Origin: Vampirovibrio chlorellavorus
GTDB lineage: Bacteria; Cyanobacteriota; Vampirovibrionia; Vampirovibrionales; Vampirovibrionaceae
Assembly: GCA_903866275.1 (NCBI GenBank)
Contig: CAIPMU010000012.1
Location: 70,452-134,451, forward strand
Direction: 5' to 3'
DNA length: 64,000 bases
Shown: one piece after another, positions 17,433 to 61,187 of the stretch
How positions within the stretch are numbered: the stretch's first letter is position 1
Layout: every line of letters begins with the position of its first letter
Notes under the pieces: generated by a model
Seen by the model: the letters and a program-made list of their open reading frames with translations, nothing else
What the model was told of the DNA's origin: nothing
Database searches by the model: none
Translations under genes and position numbers: made by a program

Positions 17433-17603
17433 AAAACTCGCCCGCTTACCAAAAAGAGGCAAAGCCTCTTTTCCTAAGCAAAAAAGCGCCATAGCCACCC
17501 ACCCGAAAACAACACTTGGAGGGGTTTGGGGAAAACAGTTTCCCCAATGGAGGGAGTTTGAGGGAGGCTAGCCTCCCTCAAGACCCACCAGCTCAACCTG
17601 AAA
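17433..17603 (+). repeat. three-hairpin dispersed repeat, copy A
   Basis: First of three copies of a roughly 170-bp intergenic element. Hairpin 1 is AAAAGAGGC/GCCTCTTTT at 17452-17472. Hairpin 2 is TTGGGGAAA/TTTCCCCAA at 17526-17547. Hairpin 3 is a perfect 24-nt palindrome at 17558-17581. Between them a conserved single-stranded scaffold includes CCTAAGCAAAAAAGCGCCA and GGAGGGGTTT. It lies between the convergent WG and calcium-binding-repeat genes. An AGCCAGC/GCTGGCT hairpin (17374-17390) precedes it. The other copies are at about 38.2 and 61.0 kb. Confidence 0.85.
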
Positions 17604-17623
17604 CGAAAAAGCTCGAAAAAACT

Positions 17624-20600
17624 TTAGGTATAACTAATATCCCCGAAGGTCAAATTCCCGTCGCTGAAGTGGAAACTGTCGATCACACCGGTTCCAGCCA
17701 CGGCGACGTTATTGTTGAAGTAATGCTGGATGGTAATGGTATCGCCAGTGGCCAGATGCACGACGAGTGAATCGGGCAGACTGTCATTGCCGAAGGCGTC
17801 CACGGCGTTCCAGGAGGTGACATCGGATTGGGCAAAGCCGGTGAGATCCACCACTTTGGAAGCGCCGGTGTCGGTAATGGTGACATCGCCGAAGCCGCCG
17901 GTGCCAAAGCCCTGATAGAGGTTATTGCCGCCGGTATCGGTAATGCTGGTGGTACCGGGTACGCTGTCGTTGATGATATAGGTGTCATCACCCGAACCGC
18001 CGGTGACATCCTCGATGTTGGCAATGGTTAAGGCGCCGCCCGTGGTCGAAACACTACCCGCGCTGAAATCAACGGTGAGGTTGGAGGTCACGGCGGACAG
18101 GTTCAGGCTGTTGGTGCCAAAGCCGCCGTCGATGGCATGGGTGCCGAAGGCGTTGCCCAGTACAAAGGTGTCATCGTTGCCACCGGTGGTCACATCGGCA
18201 ATGTGGGAGAAGTGAATCAGCCCAGTGCCGGTGGTGTCATCATTGGCAGTTTGCGCGGTAAAGTTGACGGTGACCGAGTCGCTCGTGTTGCTTAAATCCA
18301 GACTGTTGCTGCCGGTGCCGCCATCGATGGTCGCGTTCTCATAGGAATCTGCGAAGACGAAAATGTCTGCGCCCCCGCCGGTGGTCACGGAATCGATGTT
18401 GCTGACGTAGGTGACGCCACCCAGCCCGTAAACACCGAAGCTGACCGTGGCATCATCGGTGTTGGCCAAGCCAGACATATCCAGGGCGTCATTGCCGGTG
18501 CCGCCATCCAATGTGACCGAATTGGTGAGGTCAGAGACCACAAAGGTGTCGTTTCCGCTACCGGTCAGGAAGTAGTTGATATCGCTGAAGGTGATGGTGT
18601 GCGTGCCATCCGTGATGGTTCCGGTGTGGGTGTTGACGGTCAATGCGTGGCTGGCGATGGAGCCATCCAGGTTATTCTCCCCGGTACCGCCGTCCACGGT
18701 GATGCTGCCAAAACCATTCTGATAGAGAAAAGAATCGTCCCCGGTACCCGTGATAATGCTTTGCACCGTGCTTCCCCCGGTAAAATCCACGTTGCCTGCC
18801 GAGCTGGTGATTAAACTGGTGTGCAGGTCGGTGGTAATATTCGCGCTGAGGGTATGAAAATCCAGAACATCGGTGCCGGACGAATCGGTGACGGTGTCGT
18901 GGCCGAAGGAGCCGATAAACTGATACGTGTCATTCCCCGGGCCGCCATTCAGGGTGTCGTTGCCACCGGCGCCGTTCAGGGTATCGTTGCCCGCCAGCCC
19001 GGTCAGTGAATCGTTGCCGCTACTACCCGTAATCGAGTCATTTCCCGTGGTGCCGGTATACGGCGAGGGGGCCGGGGCCGGGGCTGGCGCTGGTGCCGGC
19101 GATGGAGAAGGTGAAGGTGAAGGCGATGGGGTGGGTGATGGCGATGGAATGGGGGTCGGGGCCGACACCGATTCGGTGTAAGTTACATCGCCGAGGGTAA
19201 CGTTGCCATCGCTGAAGTGGAAGCTTTCAATTTCGCCAACGCCCGCGATGGTCGTATCGTTGTTGAAATAGTGCTGCACGGTAATGGTATCGCCGGTGGA
19301 AAGATGCACCACCAGTGAATCGGGCAGACTGTCGCTGCCAAATAAATCGGCGCTCTGCCAGGCGGTAACCTGAGATTTGGTAAAGCTGGTTAAATCCACT
19401 ACGTCGGTGCCTGCGGCATCGTTAATGGTCACCGCCCCAAAATGGCCGGTGGAAAACCCTTGATAGGTATCATCGCCCCCGGCGTCGCTCAGGCTGACCG
19501 CGCCCACGACTCCTGCTTTCACGGTATAGGTGTCATCGCCGGTGCCGCCAGAGACCGCTTCCAGATTATCGATGGTCAAGGTGTTGCCGCCCGTGGTGAC
19601 GGAACCCGTGCTGAGGTTGATCGCTACATCGGTGGTGACGGCCGCGAGGTTGAGGGTATCTGTGCCGCCTCGGCCATCCACGGTGTGGGTGCCAAAGGCG
19701 TTGCCAAAGGTGAAGATATCGCTGCCGGCCCCGCCGGTGGCATCCTGAATGTTGGTGAACGTAATGGTACCCGCGCTGGTCGAATTGGTGGCGGTGCCTG
19801 CGGTAAAGTTCACGGTGGCATTGCTGGTGGTTAAATCACTGAAGTCCAGCGTATTGTTGCCGGTGCCGCCATTAATGGTGACGGTATTAAAGCCATTGGC
19901 GAACGAGAATGTATCGTCTCCCGCGCCGGTGGTGACGGTATCCACATTGCTGACCATTATGGCGTTGGTCAGACCCGTGACCCCAAAGCTGACCGTCGCG
20001 TTATCGGAAGCGCCCAGCGAGGACATGTCCACCACATCGTTGCCGGTGTCGCCATCCAGCGTGACTGGAACTGAAATATCCGTGACGGTAAAGGTATCGT
20101 CCCCGGTACCGCCAATAAAATGGTTCAGATTAGAGAAGTTAATAGTATGCGTACCATCGCCCCAGGTGCCTGCATGTACATCCACCGTCAGATCACTGGT
20201 GACCAGTGTGCCATCCAGCGTGTCATGTCCGCTGCCGCCATTGATTGTAATGGCGCCAAAGCTTTCCGCCACAATAAAGGTATCATCACCCAACCCGCCC
20301 GAAATGCTGGCAATGCTGCTAGCGCCGGTGTAATCTACCGAATCGTGGGAACTGGTGATCAGCCTGGTGTCCAGATGGATGGTCAGATCGTTCTTGATGG
20401 TGCCGAAATCCAGCACATCCGTGCCAACCGTATCGGTGACGGAATCTTGTCCGAAGCGGCCGGTAAACAAATAGGTATCGTTGCCGTTGCCACCCACCAG
20501 CGTATCGTTCAGGCTTCCGCCATCCAGGGTGTCGTTGCCATCGCCACCAATTAGGGAGTCACTGCCTTTGTTGCCGTCCAGAAAATCGTCGCCATCGCCC

Positions 20601-20833
20601 CCATCCAGCGTGTCTACGCCAGACCCGCCGATCAGGGTATCGTTGCCGTCATCCCCGGTGAGTGAATCTTCACCCGCTCCGCCCACTAGTCGATCGTCGC
20701 CAAGGCCGCCCAACAGGGTATCGTTTCCGCGCAGGCCATAGAGCACATCATTGCCGTCGCTACCGGACAGGCTATCGGAACCTTTGCCGCCACGCATATT
20801 GTCATCGCCAACTGAGCCTACCCGAACAACCAT
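17624..20833 (-). CDS. large calcium-binding repeat (RTX-like) protein, two modules
   Basis: A protein of about 1069 residues, probably secreted. The N-terminus holds about ten nonapeptide repeats of the hemolysin type, for example [19 protein letters not shown] and [11 protein letters not shown], which bind calcium in a parallel beta-roll. A long beta-rich region with repeated DDTF and TLDGGTGNN-type motifs follows, ending in an HCBP-related domain ([20 protein letters not shown]). A linker of alternating Pro-Ser then Pro-Ala separates this from a second, shorter copy of the same order. Both copies end in the same pattern, FHFSDGN then GDV/ISYT. No classical signal peptide is present, in keeping with type I secretion, but no transporter genes lie nearby. 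ATG 20833 is preferred (GGGAG about 10 nt upstream); TTG at 20839 is possible. Confidence 0.88.
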
Positions 20834-21282
20834 CGTCAATGTACTCCCATTTTTTCTCTCCCGAAGCTCAACGGCACACAGGCGTGTTCACCCATTGAGG
20901 TCTTCTCTCTTTATGACCGAGATCGTTCCAGTTCTATATCCTCTCAATCACGGAAATGCCAGCCATACCCGAAAAAATCCTCCAGAGGGCGTAGATCAGG
21001 TAACAGTAGCGCTGTTTGGTTTCATTGAAATGCAGATGGAAGAGGATGAAATTTGCTCGACTCAAGCCCGCGTGTGAAACCTCATGATGTCTCTGAGCAT
21101 CACGGGTATGCCTGTGTTTGAATGTTCATATTTTACGGATAATGAGAATTAGAGTTTACATGCTTAGCACCAAAATTGGCATTGTTGGTTTTATATGGGT
21201 AGGACTATAGGTATTCAGGATTCTGATTCAGAATGCTGGATGACGGGATTTTGTTCACAGGGATGACAGGACACACGATGGT
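20834..21282. other. gene-free interval between divergent genes
   Basis: About 450 bp that should hold the promoters for the calcium-binding-repeat gene (leftward) and the proline-rich gene (rightward). I see a small palindrome ATTCTG-ATT-CAGAAT at 21220-21234 and an AT-rich stretch around 21120-21215, but no convincing -35/-10 pair. A 54-codon frame starting at 20913 lacks a good ribosome-binding site and is not called. Confidence 0.35.
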
Positions 21283-22491
21283 ATGGGCACTCCGGCATAC
21301 AATACGCAATCCTATATTATTCCGCTGTCGGGCACGACGGGCGGACTAAGCGGCTTGTCCGATTTGCCTTCGCCGGCGCAACTGGCCCCCAGCGTGATGA
21401 CGCAGACAAGTGCCATGCCTGCCGTGCCGCCGTTGTGGCCGCCGTGCAACACCGCGCCGATGCTTCACACGCATGCCATCGCGCTGGCCGATCCGATGGC
21501 CCCTATACCACCGCCACAAGTGTTGGCCCCCCATGTATTTATGAATGCGGTCCCAGCGGCGACAGTGCCCATGCAGCCCGCTATGCAGCGCCCGGCCATG
21601 GCGCAGCCTCCGGTGCCACCGCCCCCGCCCCCGCAGCCTCCGGCTCCTCCGCCAGCCCCGGCTCAGCCCAAGGCTCCTGCGGATCCCTTTGATGGCGCGC
21701 TGACGGATGACATTGTGAAATCGTTGAACCGGCAGCTGAATGACCCGGATGAGGTCACGCGGGCTTCGGCGGCGACCGATTTAAGCAAAATTCTGGAAAA
21801 ACATCCCGGCTTGTCGGATAGCCTGGAGTACAAGGCCATTGTGGACGCCTTTCTTGAAAAAATCATGAAGGACCCCAGCACGCTGGTGCGGGGGATGGGC
21901 GAAATGACGTTTCAGTTGGGCGCAGTGCCCCATCCCTCGGAAGGGGTGCGGAACCAGTTAAAGTCGCTGGCTAAAAAAGATGACAAGAATTTAACCAAGG
22001 AAAATGATCTGGCCAGTTCCATCCTGACCGGCGCCGAAAACGGCACACTGGGCAAGAATCTGGAAAACGTGCTGGGCAAGAAAAAAGAAGCGGCCCCCGG
22101 TGATGCGCCCCCCGGTACTCCCGCAGACGCGATGACACCCGGTGGTGCTACCCTGTCACCTTCACCCGTCCCTGCGGTTGAACCGGCCTCAGCGGCAAGT
22201 ACGCAGAGTGCACCCGCTAGTATGCCTGCGGGTATGCCTGTAGCACCCACGATGCCCACCCCCATGACCAGTTATCAATCCCCAATAGGGATGGGGGCTT
22301 ATCCCGCTAACGCTTATCCGGCGACTGCTTACGGGCCACCCGCTGCCGGAACGTTTCCCGGTGGTGCAGCTGGCCCTACCTTCGGAAGTCGTTTGAATAT
22401 TATGAGTAACGCCCCGGGCATGATGTCACCGGGCTTGGCCAATGTCCAAATGGGACAACGGCTGAACGTGTATGAGGGACCTCGTTCATGA
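21283..22491 (+). CDS. proline-rich protein with helical (HEAT-like) core, unknown function
   Basis: 402 residues, family not recognised. Residues 1-120 are low complexity, rich in Pro, Ala and Met, with a run PVPPPPPPQPPAPPPAPAQP. A helical core of about 110 residues follows (DDIVKSLNRQLNDPDEVTRA, ASAATDLSKILEKHPGLSDS, IMKDPSTLVRGMGEMTFQLG). Its spacing recalls HEAT/ARM repeats; this is inference from pattern. The C-terminal third is again Pro, Ala, Gly, Met-rich and ends SRLNIMSNAP...GQRLNVYEGPRS, with two RLN motifs. No signal peptide or membrane segment. The stop overlaps the next start by four bases (ATGA), so the two products are made together and may interact. A similar style of proline/methionine-rich tail occurs in the gene at 49.0 kb. 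Confidence 0.7.
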   Translation: MGTPAYNTQSYIIPLSGTTGGLSGLSDLPSPAQLAPSVMTQTSAMPAVPPLWPPCNTAPMLHTHAIALADPMAPIPPPQVLAPHVFMNAVPAATVPMQPAMQRPAMAQPPVPPPPPPQPPAPPPAPAQPKAPADPFDGALTDDIVKSLNRQLNDPDEVTRASAATDLSKILEKHPGLSDSLEYKAIVDAFLEKIMKDPSTLVRGMGEMTFQLGAVPHPSEGVRNQLKSLAKKDDKNLTKENDLASSILTGAENGTLGKNLENVLGKKKEAAPGDAPPGTPADAMTPGGATLSPSPVPAVEPASAASTQSAPASMPAGMPVAPTMPTPMTSYQSPIGMGAYPANAYPATAYGPPAAGTFPGGAAGPTFGSRLNIMSNAPGMMSPGLANVQMGQRLNVYEGPRS

Positions 22492-23204
22492 GTAGTGATT
22501 CGGCAGTCAATAAGTTGAGCGCTGCGGCCAAAAAAGACGGTCCGATTGTTTCTCGTCCGATGAAGGATAGCCCGATGATGGGGCTGTTTGCGTTGGCGGC
22601 AGTGGGTACGACGGCCTGGATGATTCGTGACTCCTACCACGGCAACAAGGAGCGTGAGGATCAAGAGGCCTCCATGCACCAGGCTAACAAGGATTACGCC
22701 TATTCGGCCTATGACTGGGGCCGTTATTCCGGTCGCCCCCATATGGACAATCTGGCGCACAGCTGGATGGGCTTAAAGCTGTATGGTCCTTATGGCCTGA
22801 AGGAATGGTATCAGGAAACGGTGGTCAAGTTCTACTCCATTTATAAAGAGGTTATTCTGCCCAATCTGGTTCCGATTGGCATCAGTATTGCTTCGCTGTA
22901 TGGCTTTTTTGGGGCTAAGGCCATTAATGGCAAAATTGGTGATATGGGCAAGGAAATTGGCGGTGTCATTTCCAGGGCAAACGTTGGTGGTGGCTTCTGT
23001 AAATATGCCAATAAGGCCTATGAAGGGACTGTCAAGGGGTGTGCCAAAGTTCTGGAAAAAGCCTTTACATACCCGGCGATCGCAGCGGGTACGGTGCTGT
23101 TGGGTGCCTGGTTCCTGAAGTCCTTTAACGATGCCTATAGTGGTCAAGGCCAGCGCGAATACTTCCGTCACGAGCTGTGGCAAAAAGACGGCAGAGAAGA
23201 ATAG
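22488..23204 (+). CDS. membrane protein of unknown function, coupled to previous gene
   Basis: 238 residues, no family recognised. Three or four hydrophobic stretches are visible: MMGLFALAAVGTTAWMI (about 30-46), PNLVPIGISIASLYGFFGAK (about 125-144), and YPAIAAGTVLLGAWFLKSF (about 195-213). Between the first two is a polar, Tyr/His-rich region (HQANKDYAYSAYDWGRYSG). A basic amphipathic stretch with KGCAKVLEKAF precedes the last segment. The start overlaps the stop of the proline-rich protein (ATGA), so translation is coupled. It ends 30 bp before the convergent glycosyltransferase. The layout, soluble proline-rich partner plus membrane protein, suggests a membrane-associated complex, but there is no sequence basis for naming it. 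Confidence 0.68.
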   Translation: MSSDSAVNKLSAAAKKDGPIVSRPMKDSPMMGLFALAAVGTTAWMIRDSYHGNKEREDQEASMHQANKDYAYSAYDWGRYSGRPHMDNLAHSWMGLKLYGPYGLKEWYQETVVKFYSIYKEVILPNLVPIGISIASLYGFFGAKAINGKIGDMGKEIGGVISRANVGGGFCKYANKAYEGTVKGCAKVLEKAFTYPAIAAGTVLLGAWFLKSFNDAYSGQGQREYFRHELWQKDGREE

Positions 23205-23233
23205 CGCAACGCCTTTTCGAGCGATGATGATGT

Positions 23234-24898
23234 CTAGCGGTCTTTGCGTTTGAAGACTAGAATGTTCTGCAATTCGCCTGCGAGCTGGTAATCCTTGACC
23301 AGGATGGTTTCCAAACCGTACAGGTGAAAGTCGTAATTGCGCCATTTCAGGAAGCGTTGATCAAAGCGGAAGTCCAGTTCATCCAGTCGGTTGTAGAGGA
23401 TGAAGGTGGGCTTTTTTCGCCTCAGATCCCTGAGAGCTTCTTCTATTTGTTCCGGGGTGTTGTAGATGGCCATGAGGATTTGGTAGCGGGTGGGGTTGTC
23501 CCGATGGGTCAGGAAGTAGAGTTCGGGTGCGCCGTTGTATACAAACAGGTTGGTGCCCGGCGGTGATTGCTCGTGTAATAGACGCAGCAGTTGATTGGAG
23601 GCTTCGATGTAGTCACTCGATGCCTCGGAGGTGAGGCCGGATTCTCGGGTACCGTAGGAGATCACGCGCGGGGCGTTGAGCAGGTTGAGCGATGTGTTCG
23701 TGGATAGGCACAAGCTGGCCAGAATTCCCAAAATCAGTACCACGCCAAAGGTTTTTTGCAAGGTGGGGCGGTGCTGCCATATGCCCTGAATGGCGACCCA
23801 GGCCAATAGGTATAAAGGCCAAGCATGCCACAGTACCATGCGCGTATTGGGATAGGAAAAAATGGCCAGAAAAAAGCCAATCCCCGCCATCCACAGATAG
23901 AGCAATCGCCAGTCTGTGAGTGAAAGGCTAGGGTCTTTCTGGCCATGGCGCCACCGTTTTTTCAGCAGGTGAGCCGGGGGCCAAATCAGTCCCACCAGCG
24001 GGAGGATGCCGGATAGAATCATAAACAATAAGTTCAGAGTGATGGGGCCATTCCTGAATAATACTTTGGAGTAGCTAAACAGTCGGTTCCAGCCATCCAG
24101 AAAATAGATGTGCGATGTGGTGGCGGCATAATTGCCGCGTGCCAGATAGGTAAAGGTACTGTCCCACAGATTGCCCAGTGCGCCCTGAGAGGCGAAATAG
24201 CCATAGGTCAGTGCAATGGGGAGCAGGGCTGGCAGGGTCAGGTTGGTGAGTACCAGCAACAGGCTGCGACCGAACGGTTGTTTTTCATGCTGCATGCGAT
24301 AAACCAGCAGAAAAGCGCCCAACGCCACCCCGAGCGTGACCCCCAGGGTCTGGGTAAAGAGGGTCGTCAGCCCGATCAAAAATCCGGCCAGCAGCGTGAA
24401 TTTGGGGCGTTGGCCGGTTTCTTGCAGTGTGGCATGCCACAGGCACAACAGGGCGAGCATGCCCGTAAAGGCGCTACACAGGTGATGTTGTAATTCCATG
24501 AGGGTCGGCAGATGAAACACCCACAGCAAGAGGCCCAGGGTAATCCAACCCCATCGGGGGAGAAACGCGCGAGCCAGATGCAGGGTGATCGCAATACAAC
24601 CCAGAATCATGGCCAACGCGGTTAGGCGAAACGCTACCATGCTCACGCCAAAGAGTTTGATGAGTCCGGCCACCAGATAAAAAATGCCCGGCAGAATGAA
24701 GTCAAAAAAGTCCCGGTAGGGCAACTTGCCCAGGGTGATCAGATAGCCTTCATAGAGGAAGGTACTTTCATCCTGTACGGGTAGCTTGATGAAATAGGGC
24801 CAGCAGATGAACAGCAACCACAAGCCGAGCAAGCCCCAGCCCAAATAGAGTAGCCAGTGATGGTTTGAAGGTTTGTTCAATGGTTTTTCTATCCTCAT
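23234..24898 (-). CDS. membrane glycosyltransferase, PMT/ArnT-like (first paralogue)
   Basis: Polytopic glycosyltransferase (GT-C fold, PMT_2/ArnT-like) expected to move sugar from a polyprenyl carrier onto lipid or protein outside the membrane. The reading frame gives 571 residues from an ATG at 24949; I chose the ATG at 24898 because it leaves the same short N-terminus before the first membrane helix as in the paralogue. Key features are the acidic pair after helix 1 (LPVQDESTFLYEGYLITLGK), the FFDFILPGIFYL loop and about 11 to 12 hydrophobic segments. The C-terminal soluble domain contains NPTRYQILMAIYNTPEQI and LYNRLDELDFRFDQRFLKW. It follows its paralogue in tandem and is convergent with the unknown membrane protein. 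Acceptor unknown. Confidence 0.85.
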   Translation of the reverse strand: MRIEKPLNKPSNHHWLLYLGWGLLGLWLLFICWPYFIKLPVQDESTFLYEGYLITLGKLPYRDFFDFILPGIFYLVAGLIKLFGVSMVAFRLTALAMILGCIAITLHLARAFLPRWGWITLGLLLWVFHLPTLMELQHHLCSAFTGMLALLCLWHATLQETGQRPKFTLLAGFLIGLTTLFTQTLGVTLGVALGAFLLVYRMQHEKQPFGRSLLLVLTNLTLPALLPIALTYGYFASQGALGNLWDSTFTYLARGNYAATTSHIYFLDGWNRLFSYSKVLFRNGPITLNLLFMILSGILPLVGLIWPPAHLLKKRWRHGQKDPSLSLTDWRLLYLWMAGIGFFLAIFSYPNTRMVLWHAWPLYLLAWVAIQGIWQHRPTLQKTFGVVLILGILASLCLSTNTSLNLLNAPRVISYGTRESGLTSEASSDYIEASNQLLRLLHEQSPPGTNLFVYNGAPELYFLTHRDNPTRYQILMAIYNTPEQIEEALRDLRRKKPTFILYNRLDELDFRFDQRFLKWRNYDFHLYGLETILVKDYQLAGELQNILVFKRKDR

Positions 24899-25001
24899 AA
24901 ACTTGTGTGGCCTTTGTTTCCAGGGGTGAAATCTGCTTTTGGGGGCCATATTGAGTACAGCGATTGCAATGAAGTGCTCGTGCTGTAGCTTGGGGCTAGT
25001 G

Positions 25002-26651: not shown

Positions 26652-26870
26652 CTCGGTTCCCTGTTACTGCCCAATACACTTTTTCTAGCATACCGTATGT
26701 TGGGTATTTGGGGAGGTATTGCTTAGGGTGCTGAATGGGTAGCGATGATAACGGGAGCGTGGTTTTTGCTGTGAAAGCCCAGCGTGATTCAGGGTAGGGT
26801 GCATAGGCAATAGCCGTCCTGATCATCACAAGGGGACGGCTCAGCCAGAGGGAAATATAGGGGACTGGTT

Positions 26871-31641: not shown

Positions 31642-31698
31642 GGCTCGCATCCCTTTCTGGTTGCCGCTTTTACTCGGAATACATGCAGCAAGACTATT

Positions 31699-38170: not shown

Positions 38171-38242
38171 AACCAATCTGTTCCACCAAAAGAAAAGCCC
38201 TACCCTGCCACCAATCAACCTGCCCCACAAGAAGAAAAGCCC
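38171..38242 (+). repeat. imperfect tandem duplication next to repeat copy B
   Basis: Two similar units with a 42-bp period, sharing ACCAATC near the start and AGAAAAGCCC near the end (38191-38200 and 38233-38242). They directly precede repeat copy B and share its A/C-rich character. The rest of the xseA upstream interval (37952-38170) is A/C-rich and holds no gene that I can see. Confidence 0.45.
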
Positions 38243-38399
38243 CCATAGCATTCCAAAAAGAGCCAAAGGCTCTTTTCCTCCCCCAAAAAAGCAAGCCCGC
38301 AACGCAAAAGCAACGCACACTTGGCAGGGTTTGGGGGGCGCCACTGCCCCCCAATGGGGGTTGTTAGGGGGCAAGCCCCCTAATACCAATCAGCAAAAA
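38235..38399 (+). repeat. three-hairpin dispersed repeat, copy B
   Basis: Second copy of the intergenic element. Hairpin 1 is AAAAGAGCC/GGCTCTTTT (38256-38276), with a G-C to C-G swap against copies A and C. Hairpin 2 is TTGGGGGGC/GCCCCCCAA (38331-38354). Hairpin 3 is TTAGGGGGC/GCCCCCTAA (38364-38383). The sequence outside the stems is more diverged than between A and C, yet the stems are preserved by paired changes. It lies downstream of the DUF151 gene and upstream of xseA. Confidence 0.8.
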
Positions 38400-38440: not shown

Positions 38441-38944
38441 CTATTGATTGGACTCAATATCACCCTGAAATTTAAAATCACTGGCCTTCAGGTCGGTCAG
38501 GAAGTTGCGAAACTCTTTCGCTTCGGCCTCATCGCGTTCCTGATCGGTGGAAATTGTCCCTTCGGCCATCACATTGGCGGTGGCAAAAATGGGCACCTTT
38601 GACTTCAGGGCCAAGGCAATGGCATCGGACGGGCGCGAATCGATGATCTGCACCTTGCCGTCTGCGGCGGTCAGGTAAATACTGGCAAAATAGGTATCGG
38701 AATTAATGTCGTTGATCTCAATCTTGCTGATATTTTGCCCGGTGGCCTCAATGATGTTGTTCAGTAAGTCATGCGTCATGGGCCGCGCCGATTTGATGTC
38801 TTCTAGCTGGCGAATGATGGCGCTGGCCTCTGCCGTACCAATCCAAATCGGTAGCGCGCGACGGTTTTCCTGATCGTTTAACACCACAATCGGCGTACCG
38901 GTGCGGGTGTCTAAAGCTATCCCCATCACGTAAAGCTCGACCAT
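38441..38944 (-). CDS. bifunctional nuclease family protein (DUF151)
   Basis: About 167 residues from the ATG at 38944. The family signature starts MVELYVMGIALDTRTGTPIV and continues with LNDQENRRALPIWIGTAEAS, then PMTHDLLNNIIEATGQNISK and IDSRPSDAIALALKSKVPIF. These are the conserved DUF151 features (I-G-x-x-E and R-x-S-D-A). Members have been described as nucleases in plants (BBD) and are widespread in bacteria, where the role is unsettled. A longer frame opens at TTG 39001, but a TATAAT at 39019-39024 would leave only some ten bases before it, and homologues normally begin at this ATG. The acidic C-terminus (DQERDEAEAKEFRNFLTDL) is typical. Confidence 0.9.
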   Translation of the reverse strand: MVELYVMGIALDTRTGTPIVVLNDQENRRALPIWIGTAEASAIIRQLEDIKSARPMTHDLLNNIIEATGQNISKIEINDINSDTYFASIYLTAADGKVQIIDSRPSDAIALALKSKVPIFATANVMAEGTISTDQERDEAEAKEFRNFLTDLKASDFKFQGDIESNQ

Positions 38945-39018
38945 CGGCAAGCTTTCAACGTTTCCATCCTCTTTATTAATGGCAAAGCCCCCTTTTACCA
39001 ACTTTTACAGTTACATTT

Positions 39019-46602: not shown

Positions 46603-46617
46603 GCCATTTTTCAGGCG

Positions 46618-51597: not shown

Positions 51598-51650
51598 GGC
51601 TGTTGGGGGATTGAAGTTCATGCGGTGGTCCCAATTAATAGAGGTAGGCG

Positions 51651-53246: not shown

Positions 53247-53539
53247 AAATATGCCTGTCAGCCCAACCGGATGCATTGAGCCCTGACGCTACGAGTCTCA
53301 TTATAGCGGGTTTATGGTCTGGCGGTGTGAGGCTTGCCGGCTGAGCGGCACTTACGTTGCATTGTGTAGATTCTGCTTACACTCATGAAAAAGGACCCCA
53401 GGTTGGGTTGAGCCCGCGATAAGCTCAGCAGCAGCAGGCCGGGTCATTTATCCAGTGGATTTGGGCGGGATTTGAAAAACACGATTGAAGATTTCCCCAC
53501 TCTTGCCGATACAGAGATTGAGCCCCTGAGGAGACCCCC

Positions 53540-53998
53540 ATGAAGTTGAGTGATTCGTTTAAAGTCTTTGAACTGAACATCCTGCGTCAGTCCGGCAAGA
53601 TGATTACGCCCCAGCAGGTGGGCCTGAAATCGGATCCCATCGCGGCCATGCAGGCCCAGAGTGCCTCCAGCATGTTCGGAAACGTGTTGAATCAACTTGG
53701 TGGTAATACCCAGTTCGGTGGCGCGTATGGACTCTCTGCGACGGGGATGGTCCCGCCTGTGCCGCCGACCCCGCCCGCTGACCCAACCAATGCCACCGCT
53801 CAGGCCAAGTATCAGCAGGATCTGCTGACCTATCAGAGCAACTTTCAGATTTATAACCAGCGTTTTATGCAGCTGCTGTTGACTCAAATGAGCAACATGC
53901 AGCAGTCGATGCGTGCCAGTGCCGCTCAGTCCACCAATACCAGCAGCAGTGGTGGTTCTTCCTCGACCGATCTGGGGGTGGGAGGCATTCTGGGTTAG
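53540..53998 (+). CDS. hypothetical protein, Gln/Met-rich, 152 aa
   Basis: No family recognised. The N-terminus MKLSDSFKVFELNILRQSGK is helical; a middle with PPVPPTPPADPTNAT is flexible; then comes a helix rich in Gln and Met (QQDLLTYQSNFQIYNQRFMQ, LLLTQMSNMQQSMRASAAQS). The tail is Ser/Gly-rich and ends LGVGGILG. No signal peptide or membrane segment. The start is ATG with GAGGAG just upstream (spacing about 6). It stands 58 bp before a secreted protein gene, so the two may be one operon. The composition recalls proteins that scaffold larger assemblies, but no claim is made. Confidence 0.6.
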   Translation: MKLSDSFKVFELNILRQSGKMITPQQVGLKSDPIAAMQAQSASSMFGNVLNQLGGNTQFGGAYGLSATGMVPPVPPTPPADPTNATAQAKYQQDLLTYQSNFQIYNQRFMQLLLTQMSNMQQSMRASAAQSTNTSSSGGSSSTDLGVGGILG

Positions 53999-54056
53999 TC
54001 CAAAGCGTCAATCCTGTAAGCGATGAAGATGAACCGTTGATTGAGGAGTTTGTTCC

Positions 54057-54665
54057 ATGCGCCTGAAGCCTATGTTGTCTCTGGGTTTGAGTGTTGCCCT
54101 GTTCAGTATTCTGGGCCAAGTGTCCGCCGGGTGGGCCTGGGGACGTCATGACCATGCCCGCCTGGCCCTGCAGAATGAGCAGTCTGGGACGAAACCTCTG
54201 GAGGCCCAAACCCAAAAGAGCAATGCCAAAACGCAAAAGGGCAATCTAATCGTGGCGGTGAACAATCCCACGCAATTGGCAGCGATGCATTCCTTTGGGG
54301 TGCTGGATATGGAGCCCTATGATTTTTCGGCGGCGCGTGAGCCCATTCCCGCTGAGGTGCAGGAATATGCCCGCACCGCCATCCAAAATGACGGGCGCTT
54401 GCAGTATCAGTCCCTCGCTGCCGAAGGCGTTTTGCGTTTTCGGTGCGTGAATAGCAGTTGTTCCATCATCCGGGCGGAAGTGACTCAGGGATCAGATGGT
54501 CCCGTCGTCTGGGCCACGGAAGCTGTCTACCAGCCCAGCATTTGGGTAAATGTGCATTTTCTGCCGGATAGTCAAAAGTTTGCCCGGCAGATCGTTGACA
54601 AGCTCGCCTCAGATTATCAGCAGGCCCTGACGCCCTCCTCGGTGAAAATCAATATCGAGGAATAA
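54057..54665 (+). CDS. secreted protein of unknown function, 202 aa
   Basis: A clear signal peptide (MRLKPMLSLGLSVALFSILG followed by QVSAGWAWG) suggests export. The mature part begins with a polar, Gln/Lys-rich stretch and continues with a compact domain: NLIVAVNNPTQLAAMHSFGV, VLRFRCVNSSCSIIRAEVTQ (two Cys that could pair), and VHFLPDSQKFARQIVDKLAS. No family recognised. The start is ATG with GAGGAG eight bases upstream. A hypothetical Gln-rich gene precedes it at 58 bp and a prepilin gene follows about 200 bp later, so a surface or pilus role is possible, but nothing in the sequence proves it. Confidence 0.62.
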   Translation: MRLKPMLSLGLSVALFSILGQVSAGWAWGRHDHARLALQNEQSGTKPLEAQTQKSNAKTQKGNLIVAVNNPTQLAAMHSFGVLDMEPYDFSAAREPIPAEVQEYARTAIQNDGRLQYQSLAAEGVLRFRCVNSSCSIIRAEVTQGSDGPVVWATEAVYQPSIWVNVHFLPDSQKFARQIVDKLASDYQQALTPSSVKINIEE

Positions 54666-54762
54666 ACCGGGCAAGTCCCGTCATCGTTCTGTCTAACCGG
54701 TAGCGTTTAGCCAGGATTGAATGGCTCTGAATGAAACCCAACCCGGCAGGGCTTTGGTCGGG

Positions 54763-54768
54763 TATAAT
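54763..54768 (+). promoter_or_regulatory. -10 element (TATAAT) for first prepilin gene
   Basis: A consensus TATAAT in GGGTATAATACAG; no clear -35. It would start transcription near 54775, so the open frame at 54777 cannot be translated from its first codon, and the start at 54867 with AGAGAG is preferred. Confidence 0.45.
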
Positions 54769-54866
54769 ACAGAGTAGTGGTCGACACTGTCGCCAGACTC
54801 AGTCATTGTGAATCGTGGTTGCATTTTTCTGCCATGTCCGTCAAGTCTTACTATGCAAGAGAGTTA

Positions 54867-55361
54867 ATGTTCGTGATGAATTTGGGTGTTTTTTCCAGTT
54901 TGAACAACAGGATGCAGCGGGTCTTTCGTCAGGCCCGACGCGGTTTTAATGCCGTTGAAGTGGCCATTGCGGTGATCATTGTTGCCGTTCTGGGTGCCTT
55001 TACCCTGGCCACCTTGTCCAACTCCGATGAAGTGCAGGATGCCGCGATGGTTCAGTCGGCGCAAGCCTCGTTGCAAAGTGTGGTCACCCAAGGCGCGGCG
55101 CGTATGGATTTGACGCCGATGGCCCTGCGAGATACTTACAGCGGCAGTATTCTGAATGAACTGAAAGCCAGCTTTCGCACCAAGAACACCGGCAATGCCA
55201 ACGTCCAGTTTACGCCCAGCGGTGATTCTTTTTTAATGAACATCCCCAAAGCCGGACGCTCGGCGACGTTTAAAATTAACAACAGCGGTGATGTGAACCT
55301 GACCAGCCTGAGCAACTTTACCTCCTATAAAGTGTTCAACGGCGTCATCAGTAAAATTTAA
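54867..55361 (+). CDS. type IV prepilin-like protein
   Basis: 164 residues from the ATG at 54867. A positively charged leader (NNRMQRVFRQARRG) ends at G26; the mature part starts FNAVEVAIAVIIVAVLGAFT, with Glu at position +5, as class III or type IV pilins need for cleavage and methylation by prepilin peptidase. The C-terminal domain (about 115 residues) has no disulfide Cys pair and includes SLQSVVTQGAARMDLTPMAL and FTPSGDSFLMNIPKAGRSA. A minor or pseudopilin is likely. The reading frame is open to a GTG at 54777, but TATAAT at 54763-54768 and a 92-base leader favour 54867. No pilus assembly ATPase is in the window. Confidence 0.85.
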   Translation: MFVMNLGVFSSLNNRMQRVFRQARRGFNAVEVAIAVIIVAVLGAFTLATLSNSDEVQDAAMVQSAQASLQSVVTQGAARMDLTPMALRDTYSGSILNELKASFRTKNTGNANVQFTPSGDSFLMNIPKAGRSATFKINNSGDVNLTSLSNFTSYKVFNGVISKI

Positions 55362-55542
55362 AAACGCTGGTTCTCCACTTTCAGATCCCTGGTTGATGCC
55401 TGATGTTTGGCAGGTTGTTCAGGTGCTCAAACCGCAAGACGTCTTGGATTGGAGAGCATACATCGGAATTCTTTTCCCGGCGCTTCGAAACTGAAAGATG
55501 AGATAGAATAGTACTATAGGCAACAAGATCGGATAGAGACGG

Positions 55543-56214
55543 ATGACAACACGCGTACTGATCGTTGAAGATCATCAGATGACCCTGGTGGGCATCAAAA
55601 TGCTGCTGGAAAAGCAAAACAATATTGAAGTGGTCGGCGAGGCCACCAATGGGCTGGAAGCTGTGACCTTGTCTGAGTCCACGCAACCGGATGTCATTTT
55701 AATGGACATTGGCTTGCCGGAAATGGACGGCGTGGAAGCCACCCAGAAGATTAAAGCCACCCATCCCGGTCAGCGCATTATTATGCTGACCTCCAAGGAC
55801 AACGAGCGCGATGTCTTTGCCGCGTTGGCCGCTGGCGCGGATGCTTACTGCATGAAAGGCATCTCTATTGAAGCATTGGCGAAAGCCATCGAAGCCGTCA
55901 AAGAAGGCACTGCCTGGCTGGATCCCGCCGTGGCGCGCATGGTGCTCGGTCGCTTTCAGGGGAATGCCCCGGTGCAAGCCACCCCCGATGCCAACAAAAC
56001 CGATGCGCTGGTGCTGATCGATTGCCCGCTGACCGCCCGCGAACTGGAAGTGCTGAAGTTGATCGTCGATGGCATGTCCAACCCCGAAATTGCCGAAGCG
56101 CTGACCATTACCAAAGCCACCGCCAAAGCGCATGTGCATAGCATTCTGCAAAAACTCTGCGTGGATGATCGAACGCAGGCTGCGGTGTTGGCGATGCGTC
56201 AGCGGTATGTTTAA
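55543..56214 (+). CDS. NarL/LuxR-family response regulator
   Basis: 223 residues. A receiver domain at 1-120 has the acidic pocket (VLIVEDHQMTLVGIKMLLEK) and phosphoacceptor Asp in DVILMDIGLPEMDGVEATQK; the Lys is in DAYCMKGISIEAL. A linker precedes the LuxR-type helix-turn-helix (about 163-220): CPLTARELEVLKLIVDGMSN, PEIAEALTITKATAKAHVHS, ILQKLCVDDRTQAAVLA. All residues for phosphorylation and DNA binding are present. No histidine kinase is adjacent, so it is orphan here. It sits between two prepilin genes on the same strand and may control them; that is inference. The start is ATG. Confidence 0.95.
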   Translation: MTTRVLIVEDHQMTLVGIKMLLEKQNNIEVVGEATNGLEAVTLSESTQPDVILMDIGLPEMDGVEATQKIKATHPGQRIIMLTSKDNERDVFAALAAGADAYCMKGISIEALAKAIEAVKEGTAWLDPAVARMVLGRFQGNAPVQATPDANKTDALVLIDCPLTARELEVLKLIVDGMSNPEIAEALTITKATAKAHVHSILQKLCVDDRTQAAVLAMRQRYV

Positions 56215-56431
56215 ACTGTAGTATTGGTTCAAAGCCAGGGTTTTGCCTACAGGGCCTTGATAAAGAGTATCTTGATTAAAACCCTGCATTTAACCGGAGT
56301 TTTTTCTAATTTCCAATAAACTGTTTCGTCATTTTGGCAATTCAGATTGGCAGCTCAAAATATTACAGTTTTGGGCAGGTTTGCCGATAATGGATTCGAG
56401 CAAGTGCTTTATTTTGTCAGGAGGATCTGTT

Positions 56432-57025
56432 GTGCCCCCCATCCCCCCGAAATTTCGGAAATGTTTGAAGGGGTTTACGCTGGCCGAACTTTTGATTTGT
56501 GTGGCTTTAATTGGGGTTATTTCAGCCATTGCTATCCCGAAAATTCTGACCGCACAGCAAAATGCCGAGACGATTGCTGTAACTAAGGAAGTGTTTGCCA
56601 TGGTATCGGGTGCATACACGCAGTATGCGGCCAGTAATACCGCTTCGGCCAGCACTACAGAGATGGATTTAACGCCTTTCATGAACTATGTAAAAGTAGT
56701 CTCTGGAAATCAAATTGATCAAAACCCTGGATTTTCAGGTGGAATTACTTGTGGTTCTGCAGGTGCCCATTGTCTACGGATTCATAATGGCAGCATTTTA
56801 ATGTATTTTGACTACTTTAGTTTTGGCGGTACCAGCAATTTAAACGCGCTAGGGTTCATTTATGATCCCGATGGTGTATATACGGGTCTAGATGATTCTA
56901 TTAAATTTTATTTGTACTTTAATGGCAGAATCAGCACTCGTGAGAGAATGGCTCCTAACACCTCAAGCTCTATTAATACCTTAAATCCATATGCAGGGGC
57001 TGATCCAGCCTGGTACATTCCGTAG
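56432..57025 (+). CDS. prepilin / pseudopilin with short leader
   Basis: 197 residues from a GTG at 56432, which has AGGAGGA six bases upstream; a longer frame runs to 56381. The leader PPIPPKFRKCLKG is cut before FTLAELLICVALIGVISAIA, with Glu at +5, the classic type IV pilin/type II pseudopilin start. The C-terminal globular region contains a Cys pair (GGITCGSAGAHCLRI) and ends DPAWYIP. Hydrophobic N-terminal helix about 13-38. The gene is fairly AT-rich in its second half. A terminator follows. It is likely a pilin of a different type from the one at 54.9 kb, with a response regulator gene between. Confidence 0.87.
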   Translation: MPPIPPKFRKCLKGFTLAELLICVALIGVISAIAIPKILTAQQNAETIAVTKEVFAMVSGAYTQYAASNTASASTTEMDLTPFMNYVKVVSGNQIDQNPGFSGGITCGSAGAHCLRIHNGSILMYFDYFSFGGTSNLNALGFIYDPDGVYTGLDDSIKFYLYFNGRISTRERMAPNTSSSINTLNPYAGADPAWYIP

Positions 57026-57063
57026 AACCCAATGCCAATGGTATTGCTGCAATATTGATTCAA

Positions 57064-57092
57064 AAAGGGCGCTGATTGGATCAGCGCCCTTT
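57064..57092. terminator. intrinsic terminator between prepilin and icd
   Basis: Perfect 12-bp stem AAAGGGCGCTGA (57064-57075) and TCAGCGCCCTTT (57081-57092), loop TTGGA, followed by GAATTTGTTTT. The A-run on the other side makes it usable for the convergent icd transcript as well. Confidence 0.85.
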
Positions 57093-57128
57093 GAATTTGT
57101 TTTACCGACTCAGGTGTTTAGCTTAAAA

Positions 57129-58367
57129 CTAAACGTGAACCGGGGTTAGGTTTTTGACGATGGCGTCGGCAAAGCCGGAGCAGCTCAACAGGGTGGCGTT
57201 GGGCATTTGGCGCTCCAGATCGTACGTTACGTGGCCGCTGGAAATGGTTTTTTCCATGGCTTTCACCACCAGCTCGGCGGCTTCCGTCCAGCCCAGGTGC
57301 TCCAGCATCATCACGCCGGAGAGAATCAGGGAACCGGGGTTCACTTTGTCCTGACCTGCATACTTGGGGGCAGTGCCGTGGGTGGCTTCAAACAGCGCGG
57401 AGTTATCGCCAATGTTCGCGCCGGGAGCCAGACCCAAACCGCCCACTTGTGCGGCGCAAGCGTCGGATAAATAATCGCCGTTCAGGTTGGGGGAAGCCAA
57501 CACGCTGTACTCATCCGGGCGGAGCAACAGTTGTTGGAACATAGCGTCTGCAATGCGATCCTTCAGCAGGACTTTACCGGCGGGCATTTTGCCGTCGAAT
57601 TTATCCCACAGATCGGACTCGGTGATCACGTGCTCGGCAAACTCTTCGCGGGCCACTTCGTAGCCCCAGTCGCGGAACGCGCCTTCGGTGAACTTCATGA
57701 TGTTGCCCTTGTGCACCAAGGTCACGCTGGGTTTATTGTTGGCAATGGCGTATTTCAACGCGCGACGCACCAAACGCTTGGAGCCTTCCACGCTCATGGG
57801 CTTAATGCCAATCCCGGAATCCGGGCGGATGTTGGCACCAAAGTTATCTTTCAGGAAAGCGATCAGTTTGGTCACTTCCACCGAACCCTGTTTGTACTCA
57901 ATCCCGGAGTACACATCTTCGGTGTTCTCCCGGAAAATAACCACATCCAGCTTCTGGGGCTCTTTCACCGGGGCAGGCACGCCCTGGAAGTAACGCACGG
58001 GACGCACACAGGCGTACAGGTCATGAATCTGGCGCAAGGCCACGTTCAAGCTGCGGATACCGCCGCCCACGGGGGTGGTCAGGGGGCCTTTGATGGCAAT
58101 TTTGTAATCGCGGATGGCCTGATTGGTGGCTTCCGGCAACCATTCGCCGGTGCTGTTGAAGGCTTTTTCACCGGCCAGCACTTCCAGCCATTCAATTTTG
58201 CGTTTGCCTTTGTAAGCCACTTCCACTGCGGAATCCAGCACTTTTTGGCTGGCGGGCCAGATATCAATACCAATGCCATCCCCTTCAATATAAGGAATGA
58301 TGGGCTGATCGGGAACATTCAACGATAAATCGGCGTTGATGGTAATTTTTTCGCCTGCGGGGGCCAT
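57129..58367 (-). CDS. icd: isocitrate dehydrogenase (NADP-type)
   Basis: TCA-cycle enzyme converting isocitrate to 2-oxoglutarate. 412 residues from the ATG at 58367, which has AAGGAG seven bases upstream; a longer frame reaches 58460 but has no support. Family motifs: [20 protein letters not shown], then [20 protein letters not shown], the isocitrate/phosphorylation-loop region [40 protein letters not shown], and [20 protein letters not shown] near the coenzyme site. The overall length is like E. coli Icd. It is divergent from the aconitase gene with 274 bp between, the two catalysing consecutive reactions. Confidence 0.95.
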
Positions 58368-58641
58368 AACACTCTCCTTGAGAAATAGATAAAACAGACT
58401 ATCGATGTGTAGTAGCTCCAGTGTAGCATAAAGCGTCTTACCGGGGAAAAGCCCCTGCAACGCCTCAGCCAGACCCTTGATTTGTCTGGTTTTGTATCAA
58501 GTTCACATTCGCATCCGACAGAATCCCGGCTAGCCCAGCCCGAGCCGGACTGAGCCGTTCTTGCCCCAAGGGGGCCCGCCAAGTAGAATGGGGGGACGGA
58601 TAGTTGATCGATCGCTTCAAGCATCGGGTAGGAGAAAAAAC

Positions 58642-60921
58642 ATGAGCAGTAGCGCGATTCCCGCGGACAAGATCCACAAATTTTATGCCGGGCTGGCTGC
58701 CAGCCACGCCAAGGCCAAGCAACACTTTGGCAAACAGGCCCTCACGCTGGCCGAAAAGATTTTATTTTCCCATTTTGCCCCTGAGAATTACCCCGAGCGC
58801 ATCGTGCGTGGTGAAACCTTCCTCTCCTTAAACCCGGATCGCGTGGCCATGCAGGACGCCACCGCGCAGATGGCCATTTTGCAATTCATGCAAGCCAATC
58901 GTCCCCAAGTGGCTGTGCCTTCCACCGTGCATTGCGATCACCTGATTCGCGCGCAAGCCGGGGCCGATGCCGATGTGAAAAAAGCAAGCGATGAAAACAG
59001 GGAAGTCTACGATTTCCTATGTTCCGCCGCCGCCAAGTACGGCATGGGCTTCTGGAAGCCCGGCAGCGGGATTATTCACCAGGTGGTGCTGGAAAAATAC
59101 GCCTTCCCCGGCGCATTGATGATTGGCACCGACAGCCACACCCCCAACGCGGGTGGTCTGGGCATGCTGGCCATTGGGGTGGGTGGCGCGGATGCCGCCG
59201 ATGTCATGGCCGGACTTTCCTGGGAAGTGAAAGCGCCCAAGTTGATCGGGGTGCATCTCACCGGCAAGCTCAACGGCTGGGCCTCTCCCAAGGACATTAT
59301 CCTGTATCTCTGCGGTGTGCTGACCACCAAAGGCGGCACCAACAAGATTGTGGAATACTTCGGCCCCGGCGTGGAAAGCATTAGCTGCACCGGTAAAGCC
59401 ACCATCACCAACATGGGTGCGGAACTGGGCGCGACCACCTCGGTGTTCCCCTTCGACAGCCGCATGGCCGCTTACCTGCGCGCCACCGAGCGCGCCGAAA
59501 TTGCCGATCTGGCCGAGCAATACGCCGCCGATCTGCGGGCCGATGAGGAAGTGTTGGCTCACCCCGAGAACTACTATGATGAAATCGTGGAAATCAACCT
59601 GTCCGAGCTGGAGCCCTACGTGGTTGGCCCCCATACCCCGGATCGCGCCCGCAAGCTCTCTGAATTTGCGGCTGAAGTCAAAAGCAGCAACTTCCCTCAG
59701 ACCCTGAGCGCGGCTTTGGTCGGAAGCTGCACCAACTCTTCCTATGAAGACATGGAGCGCGCGGCCAATGTGGCTCGCCAGGCTCTGGCCAAAGGGTTGA
59801 AATCCAAGTCCTACTTCCTGATTACCCCCGGCTCCATTCAGGTATTTGAAACCATCAAGCGCGACGGCCAGATGAAGGACTTCACCGACATCGGCGGGAT
59901 CGTGATGGCCAATGCCTGCGGGCCCTGCATCGGGAACTGGGATCGCAGCGACATTAAAAAGGGGGAGGCCAATGCGATTATTACCTCGTTTAACCGCAAC
60001 TTCCCCAAGCGCAACGACGGCAACGCTGAAACGCTGGCCTTCATCGCCAGTCCGGAAGTGGTCACAGCGCTGGCCATTGCGGGCAGCACGACCTTCAACC
60101 CCATGACCGACACCATTGACGGAGTCAAACTGGAAGCCCCCACCGCGCCGGAACTGCCCCCCAAAGGCTTCCAGATTTCGCATGAGGGGTTGATTGAGGC
60201 TCCCGAAGATCGCTCTAGCGTGAGTGTGGCCATCAGCCCCACCAGCCCGCGTCTGGAAAAACTGGCCCCGTTTGCCCCCTGGGATGGTCAGGATTTCGTG
60301 AACGTGCCGGTGTTGGTGAAAACCCAGGGGCAAACCACCACGGACCACATCTCTCCCGCCGGGAAAGACTGGCTGCCGCTGCGTGGACACCTGTCGGGGA
60401 TTAGCCACAACATGCTGTTGGGCGCTGTGGATGCCGCCACCGGCAAGCCCGCCGAGCCGGTCAAAATGCCGGTCAACGGCGTTGAGCGCGGTGTGTCTCC
60501 GTGGGCTTTGAAAGCGCTGGAGTACAAAACTCAAAACGGCAGTATCATCGTGGGCGATGAGAACTACGGCGAAGGCAGCAGCCGGGAGCATGCGGCCATG
60601 TCGCCCCGCTACCTCGGCGTGAAAGCAGTGATTGCCCGCAGCTTTGCCCGCATTCACGAAACCAACCTGAAGAAACAGGGCGTGTTGCCGCTGGTATTCG
60701 TGAACAAGGCCGATTATGCCAAAACCAACAAGGGCGACACCCTCAGCATCACGGGCCTGAACAACCTGAAACAGGGCCAAACCCTACCCGTGACCGTGAC
60801 CGCCGCAGATGGCAGCACCCAAACCATTGAGCTGACCCATTCGCTCAACAGCGAACAAATTCGCTGGTTCAAGGCCGGTTCCGCCATGAACGCGGTCAAC
60901 CAGCCCAAAGCGGCCCTTTAA
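58642..60921 (+). CDS. aconitate hydratase (mitochondrial type)
   Basis: Isomerises citrate to isocitrate with a [4Fe-4S] cluster. 759 residues from the ATG at 58642 (GGAG eight bases upstream); an open frame starts at 58561 without support. Cluster cysteines are seen in LVGSCTNSSYEDMERAANVA and ANACGPCIGNWDRSDI. IGTDSHTPNAGGLGMLAIGV, TTDHISPAGKDWLPLRGHL and GDENYGEGSSREHAAMSPRY are the substrate-site motifs, so all parts are intact. The shorter length and the lack of a long AcnB N-terminal domain place it in the mitochondrial-type group rather than AcnA/AcnB of E. coli. It is divergent from icd, and followed by a terminator. Confidence 0.94.
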   Translation: MSSSAIPADKIHKFYAGLAASHAKAKQHFGKQALTLAEKILFSHFAPENYPERIVRGETFLSLNPDRVAMQDATAQMAILQFMQANRPQVAVPSTVHCDHLIRAQAGADADVKKASDENREVYDFLCSAAAKYGMGFWKPGSGIIHQVVLEKYAFPGALMIGTDSHTPNAGGLGMLAIGVGGADAADVMAGLSWEVKAPKLIGVHLTGKLNGWASPKDIILYLCGVLTTKGGTNKIVEYFGPGVESISCTGKATITNMGAELGATTSVFPFDSRMAAYLRATERAEIADLAEQYAADLRADEEVLAHPENYYDEIVEINLSELEPYVVGPHTPDRARKLSEFAAEVKSSNFPQTLSAALVGSCTNSSYEDMERAANVARQALAKGLKSKSYFLITPGSIQVFETIKRDGQMKDFTDIGGIVMANACGPCIGNWDRSDIKKGEANAIITSFNRNFPKRNDGNAETLAFIASPEVVTALAIAGSTTFNPMTDTIDGVKLEAPTAPELPPKGFQISHEGLIEAPEDRSSVSVAISPTSPRLEKLAPFAPWDGQDFVNVPVLVKTQGQTTTDHISPAGKDWLPLRGHLSGISHNMLLGAVDAATGKPAEPVKMPVNGVERGVSPWALKALEYKTQNGSIIVGDENYGEGSSREHAAMSPRYLGVKAVIARSFARIHETNLKKQGVLPLVFVNKADYAKTNKGDTLSITGLNNLKQGQTLPVTVTAADGSTQTIELTHSLNSEQIRWFKAGSAMNAVNQPKAAL

Positions 60922-60938
60922 TTTAACCCAATCCAACC

Positions 60939-60970
60939 AAAAGCCCGATTACTTTAGTAATCGGGCTTTT
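60939..60970 (+). terminator. intrinsic terminator after aconitase
   Basis: Perfect 15-bp stem AAAAGCCCGATTACT (60939-60953) with AGTAATCGGGCTTTT (60956-60970), two unpaired bases at the tip, then GTCTTTC. It works in both directions by its A and T flanks. Confidence 0.88.
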
Positions 60971-61015
60971 GTCTTTCTTCGAGTTCGCTTGCAATGCGTT
61001 TCTATAGAACACCCC

Positions 61016-61187
61016 AAAACACGCCCGCTGTCCAAAAAGAGGCAAAGCCTCTTTTCCTAAGCAAAAAAGCGCCACAGCTAAGCGAAAGAAAACAACACTC
61101 GGAGGGGTTTGGGGGCAACGCTGCCCCCAATGGAGGGAGTTTGAGGGAGGCCTAGCCTCCCTCAAGACCAACCAGCAAAACCAGAAA
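61016..61187 (+). repeat. three-hairpin dispersed repeat, copy C
   Basis: Third copy. Hairpin 1 AAAAGAGGC/GCCTCTTTT (61035-61055); hairpin 2 TTGGGGGCA/TGCCCCCAA (61109-61130); hairpin 3 TTGAGGGAGGC/GCCTCCCTCAA (61141-61165). Close to copy A outside the stems as well (CCTAAGCAAAAAAGCGCCA is identical). It ends three bases before the stop codon of the aminotransferase and follows the aconitase terminator, so both flanking genes are convergent on it. Confidence 0.85.

Follow-up and report, generated by a model that had tools for sequence, protein, structure and literature searches.

Small dispersed repeats that fold into hairpins have been catalogued as 92 stem-loop families in 40 genomes (PMC2267715, accessible part). 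Repetitive extragenic palindromes (REPs) lie close to the 3' ends of open reading frames (ORFs), between convergent and tandem genes, and sometimes supply the stop codon, and those of the CGTC type lack a dedicated transposase (PMC3733652, accessible part). In E. coli, REPs located within 15 nt of a stop codon affect translation (as cited in the accessible part of PMC12306157). The SPRITEs of pneumococcus, which are dispersed, terminator-like and enriched between convergent genes, are AT-rich, consist of one 18-bp duplex with a U-rich tract and had no matching insertion sequence (IS) ends in the search made for them; the BOX elements (boxA-boxB-boxC) are modular, structured and intergenic, and their mover is uncertain (PMC3049150, accessible part). 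Here we describe a repeat from Vampirovibrio chlorellavorus to which SPRITE and BOX appear to be the nearest in form. It has three copies (A, B and C) in a window of 64,000 nucleotides (contig CAIPMU010000012.1, positions 70,452 to 134,451), the whole stretch of DNA analysed, which is part of a draft genome (G000) of 3.0 Mb in 20 contigs. The repeat measures about 170 bases, occurs in about 45 copies and probably spread as small mobile repeats do while supplying a transcription stop signal.

Read on the host strand from the stop codon of the preceding gene, the element consists of a spacer, hairpin 3 (HP3, mostly centred on CTAG), hairpin 2 (HP2, a hairpin set in the frame ATTGGG...CCCAAACCC), then a linker, about 53 nt long, and hairpin 1 (HP1, with an A-tract, a GC stem and a T-tract). 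It resembles REPs and REPINs as a set of many dispersed intergenic palindromes near ORF 3' ends (35/41 copies within 62 nt of a stop codon). However, REPs measure 20-40 bp and carry an unpaired GTAG or CGTC tag, whereas the G000 element has about 170 nt and three hairpins, ends in a terminator-like hairpin and keeps one orientation to its host; no GTAG or CGTC tag was found at the stem feet in the G000 alignment read by eye. Moreover, the GTAG superfamily of REPs is RAYT-associated, whereas no Y1_Tnp domain was found in G000. Terminal inverted repeats, which mark miniature inverted-repeat transposable elements (MITEs), were likewise not seen. Since tested defining features of both REPs and MITEs were lacking, the element is filed as a variant of dispersed structured repeats that is neither. 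The form of a SPRITE, i.e., a repeated stem with a T-rich tract that is enriched between convergent genes, is present here, a statement about form with no homology claimed, but the G000 element has two more GC-rich hairpins and a GC content of 55%. As in BOX, and again as a likeness of form, modules are separable, the HP2-HP3 part being common to a sister genus and the other half not; the difference lies in a core and a distal module whose combination is not the same in the two genera, and no variable-number inner repeat was seen in the G000 element. Double-hairpin elements of mitochondrial DNA are also paired hairpins, dispersed and apparently mobile, a likeness of form, and in other genomes. 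None of 4227 Rfam models matched the window over its gathering threshold, and the best matches in a literature search on Vampirovibrio and Melainabacteria repeats and on dispersed hairpin repeats held no description of the family; strings of the element's sequence returned only papers with unrelated titles, most subscription journals lying outside both literature searches. The described repeat family to which the element might have belonged, a possibility raised in an earlier reading of the window (hereafter the sequence-only reading), was found neither in Rfam nor among these best matches.

The three copies can be aligned over about 170 nt, with a common scaffold and a fixed order of hairpins, exactly where the sequence-only reading had placed them, and every stem change that it listed is in the sequence (HP1 GAGGC/GCCTC becoming GAGCC/GGCTC, three HP2 stems and two HP3 stems). 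All are intergenic and, judged by ORFs, two lie between convergent genes, as had been noted, and the third between tandem genes. Their common direction in the window is also real and has a plain cause, since the host gene of each copy is encoded on the minus strand. Further copies, on whose existence that reading depended, are plentiful: with copy C as query, BLAST returned at least 39 matches in G000 spanning at least half of it and two shorter ones, besides 35 tiny self-palindrome matches, a count that is a lower bound, 40 of 51 first-look candidates having been scored. A covariance model found 44 places at or above 70 bits in G000, 38 of which had served to build it, and one further place at 33.6 bits. 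The search that had been proposed with such a model, in the genome and its relatives, returned this strong family in G000 and weak matches in three of four other species of the genus (G001, G002 and G004 among G001-G004). The main alignment comprises 38 copies with a mean pairwise identity of 78%; it leaves out L037, L040 and L041, which are parts only, and six further model places.

Place and orientation behind stop codons are the strongest regularity of the G000 family. In 35 of 41 copies, a sense ORF of at least 70 aa ends no more than 62 nt from the edge of the match; the distance from stop codon to HP3, as measured in 35 copies, is 6-94 nt (median 35), and HP3 starts within 15 nt of the stop in only two of these. 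The stop codon lies inside the conserved stretch in L010 and L018, and four of the six further model places come 6-22 nt after a sense ORF of 297-341 aa. Gene calls were longest-ORF picks made with no trained gene finder, whereby L004, L010 and L020 were misclassed. All 15 copies classed as tandem have their host on the HP3 side (P = 6e-5 with copies taken as independent), although these are partly dependent: L003 and L029 share one host, the host of L005 is 223 nt off, and L020 truly lies in a convergent gap, a doubtful 82-aa ORF having led to its tandem label. In the convergent class, 20 of 21 copies are nearer the stop at the HP3 side, the exception being a fragment (L037). Opposing ORFs end within the element in L008 and L009, and in two convergent gene pairs each gene has a copy of its own (L020/L033 and L028/L032). 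By these crude gene calls, convergent gaps hold 21 of 40 classified copies, compared with 9 of 39 gaps in the window (Fisher P = 0.01). Four copies were first classed as divergent, among them L004, which has the end of an AhpC/TSA gene 11 nt away. As a separate observation, the host stop is TAG in 22/37 cases, compared with 13/47 window ORFs. Reading each window copy as a 3'-end module on the minus strand is well supported, and, among the options left by the sequence-only reading (MITE/REP-like, structured RNA or 3'-end module), position and orientation favor the last; dispersal and absence from congeners favor a REP-like repeat as well, and the two readings so favored are compatible with each other.

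In form, HP1 looks like an intrinsic terminator that would work in both directions. A simple pattern script scored it as terminator-like in sense in 21/31 copies and in antisense in 22/31; for window gene ends that lack the element the figure was 3/31, and for shuffles 5/310. To be scored, a copy among the 41 had to show HP1, HP3 and a host ORF, a choice that favors HP1. Each of the four A-T pairs on the outside of the HP1 stem is retained in 36-38 of the 38 copies, and the GC pairs vary on both sides. A native terminator displaced by the element was sought with no clear sign of one, a terminator-like hairpin following within 150 nt in 5/31 copies. The RNA-binding domain of Rho was found in none of seven genomes, including G000, and in 9 of 14 controls. 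The 31 element-free gene ends, none of them tightly followed, are worth noting by themselves for a lineage with no detectable Rho, just three having a terminator-like hairpin; a 2026 study reports that, in cyanobacteria, the operons explained by canonical termination are a minority (PMC13289151, accessible part).

That the repeat is purely selfish, with tolerated insertion sites alone setting where it lies and how it points, is an improbable explanation of this pattern. Pneumococcal BOX, RUP, SPRITE and IS elements are likewise enriched between convergent genes (PMC3049150, accessible part), and REPs lie near ORF 3' ends and often provide the stop TAG (PMC3733652, accessible part), in keeping with such an explanation; yet tolerance alone does not account for the orientation of the 15/15 tandem-classed copies, and it leaves the kept A- and T-tracts of HP1 unexplained.

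The hairpins themselves are supported by folding and by covariation. Copy A folds better than 200/200 shuffles on both strands, and unguided folding with RNAalifold recovered part of each of the three hairpins. When HP1, HP2 and HP3 were imposed on the 38 copies, 96.0% of 1087 cells were paired, compared with 90.8 +/- 0.4% in shuffles; the covariation score was 0.147 vs. 0.067, a value reached by 0/500 shuffles, and 10 of 29 pairs in the 38-row alignment changed on both sides, compared with 4.5 in shuffles. Sliding the stems as a control lowered pairing to 44-65%. Further pair types were not above shuffles (19 vs. 20.3, reached by 498/500). Stem covariation hence exceeds shuffles on four of five measures, and subfamilies have many of the double changes in common. 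HP1 was sorted by hand into three stem types and HP2 into four; on a tree of the scaffold outside the hairpins, HP1 types change at least 8 times and HP2 types at least 14 times, a count that omits the HP2 type of L021 and L029 and the HP1 type of L032, L034 and L036. Only 5 of 35 branches of this tree are well supported, and independent compensation and whole-hairpin exchange are therefore not separable, so that the covariation is perhaps partly due to exchange of whole hairpins. The question set by the sequence-only reading, whether covariation goes beyond phylogeny, is thus answered with respect to shuffles and only partly, given the weak tree, with respect to kinship; that selection acts on structure and not on protein, as that reading held, is an inference.

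Alternatively, stem pairing could stem from quasi-palindrome repair of the DNA or from swapping of whole hairpins, with no selection on structure, which we regard as very improbable. This agrees with the scatter of hairpin types over the scaffold tree and with two local rearrangements. In L031 and L035, the HP1 loop is TTT instead of AAA (plus strand) above an unchanged stem, as would result from an inversion of the hairpin. In L092 (contig C3 of G000, about 63.95 kb), half of an element forms an inverted duplication with perfect 46-bp arms centred on HP3, which extend into the flanking DNA and suggest either that the strand folded back at the hairpin or that the assembly is at fault. Nevertheless, just 4% of cells are unpaired, and neutral copies at 78% mean identity should show more.

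At an E value of 0.001, BLAST found no copy of the family in any of four other species of the genus. The ends of 12 host genes were sought in these congeners, giving 42 matches, among which 24 loci for eight hosts (L003, L008, L009, L020, L021, L023, L035 and L039) were read; L185 and L202 were set aside for a wrong stop, and none of the 22 usable loci has the element behind the stop, one of them (L211 in G004) having GC-rich hairpins of its own there. The host protein of copy C shows 84-86% amino-acid identity to three Vampirovibrio records, including V. chlorellavorus NCIMB 11383, and its orthologues in these three records are not followed by the element. The congener gene ends thus indicate that the family arose or expanded in the lineage of this species. 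From this absence, together with dispersal, we infer that the G000 element moves. The ends of the element fade gradually, and there is no alignable empty site from which a target site duplication could be read.

In a genome of another genus in the same family (G009), a repeat about 222 nt long gave 28 matches, 26 of which were examined, two short matches falling outside; its alignment leaves out L127, L132 and L135. The HP2-HP3 core is common to G009 and G000 (75-76% identity over 55-66 query bases, with two G000 copies), and the remainder of the G009 repeat is unlike the G000 element. In G009, the distal module is missing from L133 and L134 and stands alone in L127, L132 and L135; this detachable module (family L108-L135) has inverted ends, AGCGGCTG/CAGCCGCT. 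Counted by reading, 15 of the 26 copies are convergent, 9 tandem and 2 divergent, and all nine tandem copies are oriented opposite to the G000 rule (P = 0.004).

These comparisons bear on whether the element is instead an RNA module of the 3'-untranslated region (3'-UTR), selected by the host for protecting mRNA 3' ends or binding a regulator, and copied for its usefulness with no mobility of its own. Such a module is conceivable, although we think it rather unlikely. It would suit the sense orientation, the spacing to the stop codon and the pairing of the stems, as well as the imperfect pairs of G009, where 5 A-C and 0 G-T on the printed strand correspond to G-U on the strand of tandem hosts, a tiny count accompanied by 6 other mismatches, with some stems misplaced by the script. 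However, mismatches in the G000 family show no preference for the RNA of either strand (10 G-T vs. 12 A-C on the plus strand), transcription crosses the core in one direction in G000 and in the reverse direction in G009, and the 22 orthologous gene ends of congeners do without a copy. Nor are the hosts united by function: of the 33 proteins scanned (L034, L035, L037 and L040 were outside the scan), 28 gave a Pfam match, with functions as varied as aminotransferase, RTX protein, BFN nuclease, sigma region 4, AMP-binding, BcsB, UPRT, sugar transferase, LptF/G, UvrD and FliD, among others.

We favor, as reasonably probable, an account in which the element belongs with the small interspersed repeats of the REP/BOX/SPRITE type and brings a transcription terminator along with it. 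RNA polymerase would transcribe HP3 and HP2 and halt at HP1, giving the host gene a defined, structured 3' end, and HP1, being bidirectional in form, would also halt the facing transcript between convergent genes. The element would have spread as a non-autonomous mobile element with an enzyme acting in trans; HP2-HP3, the part common to the sister genus, may be what the mobilising enzyme recognizes, and HP1 may have been acquired as a module through which an insertion behind a gene becomes tolerable or useful in a lineage where Rho is not detectable. A further reading, which we consider unlikely, is that of a travelling terminator that inserts in sense directly behind stop codons by a route linked to transcription ends or terminator hairpins, and that would have taken over about 40 gene ends in a genome where Rho is undetected and recognizable intrinsic terminators are few.

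Several observations weigh against the favored account. Regarding hosts, a good host ORF is missing for four of the 41 copies (L005, L019, L025 and L029), the hosts of L034 and L037 are doubtful, and those of L002 and L022 are short ORFs with no Pfam match. Regarding termination, the sense pattern fails in 10/31 copies, HP3-HP2 stretches also score as terminator-like (8/31), and HP1 of copy C was missing from the output of a separate terminator scan. In G009, no T-tract was seen by reading behind the hairpins, and the orientation is opposite; therefore, termination is not the role of the shared HP2-HP3 core, and the G000 family has the terminator-like HP1 as a module of its own. Regarding spread, the covariance model weakly matches 1, 4, 0 and 2 places in G001-G004, respectively (E 6e-7 to 3e-3), so that the element has relatives that predate the species, these matches being a related but different repeat at few loci. 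No exact empty site was found among the congener loci, because their post-stop sequences do not align, and the G000 element has no terminal inverted repeats, its conserved ends not being complementary. Two candidate movers also failed. A RAYT was rejected, as Y1_Tnp (PF01797) was found in none of the five genomes of the genus, G000 included, nor in G009; G000 is 97.7% complete, and a transposase gene could therefore have been missed. A reverse transcriptase, such as would drive a repeat derived from a group II intron or retron, was likewise rejected, PF00078 (RVT_1) not being found in G000 or G009; this domain is present in G001, G002 and G251. The related copies of G001, G002 and G004 were also considered as a mark of a mobilising gene and dismissed, for those genomes share the surrounding genes, which looks more like old loci passed on by descent.

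If the account is correct, small mobile repeats can rewrite the transcript ends of many genes together, and the family would offer a handle on how transcripts end in Rho-less relatives of cyanobacteria. Genus-specific families built on a common HP2-HP3 core would then form a series in which mobility can be separated from terminator function.

The features of the window copies are collected in the table below. The 5' extension of copy B is also present in L020 and L033.

Table. Coordinates of the three window copies and their hairpins (window positions).
Feature	Position	Strand	Description	Basis
Copy A	17433..17603	-	3' module of minus-strand RTX-type gene 17624-20839	
Copy A HP3	17558..17581	-	CTAG-centred palindrome, first hairpin of the transcript	sequence and fold
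Copy A HP2	17526..17547	-		sequence and fold
Copy A HP1	17451..17472	-	A-tract / GC stem / T-tract, resembling an intrinsic terminator in both directions	read from sequence; family pattern
Copy B	38235..38399	-	3' module of minus-strand BFN-domain gene 38441-39001	
Copy B HP3	38364..38383	-	TTAGGGGGC/GCCCCCTAA	read from sequence
Copy B HP2	38331..38354	-		read from sequence
Copy B HP1	38255..38276	-	GAGCC/GGCTC variant	read from sequence
Copy C	61016..61187	-	3' module of minus-strand aminotransferase gene 61190-62470	
Copy C HP3	61141..61165	-		read from sequence
Copy C HP2	61109..61130	-		read from sequence
Copy C HP1	61034..61055	-	terminator-like by eye, unlisted by terminator scan	read from sequence

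The exact core pattern was absent from collections of genome contigs and viral contigs, and blastn gave no match in a plasmid collection, all of which may omit the genome of the window. Of 289 genomes of the class, 23 contain the HP2 frame, with 86 matches in all; those with at least two are G000 (31), G009 (13), G251 (9), G005 (7), G125 (4), G272 (3), G123 (2) and G013 (2). The reversed control pattern gave 14 matches in 11 genomes, with a maximum of 3 per genome; single matches therefore mean little. In G251, G125, G272, G123 and G005 (L163-L182), the frame belongs to other GC-rich modular repeats that are unlike the G000 element outside HP2. With the exception of G123, these genomes have one Y1_Tnp match each, that of G272 with an internal stop and that of G005 weak. 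Finally, four contigs filed as viral (L222, L227, L230 and L243) carry a double hairpin of the order GGGGC...GCCCC, CCCATT, GGGG...CCCC, AAACCCC.

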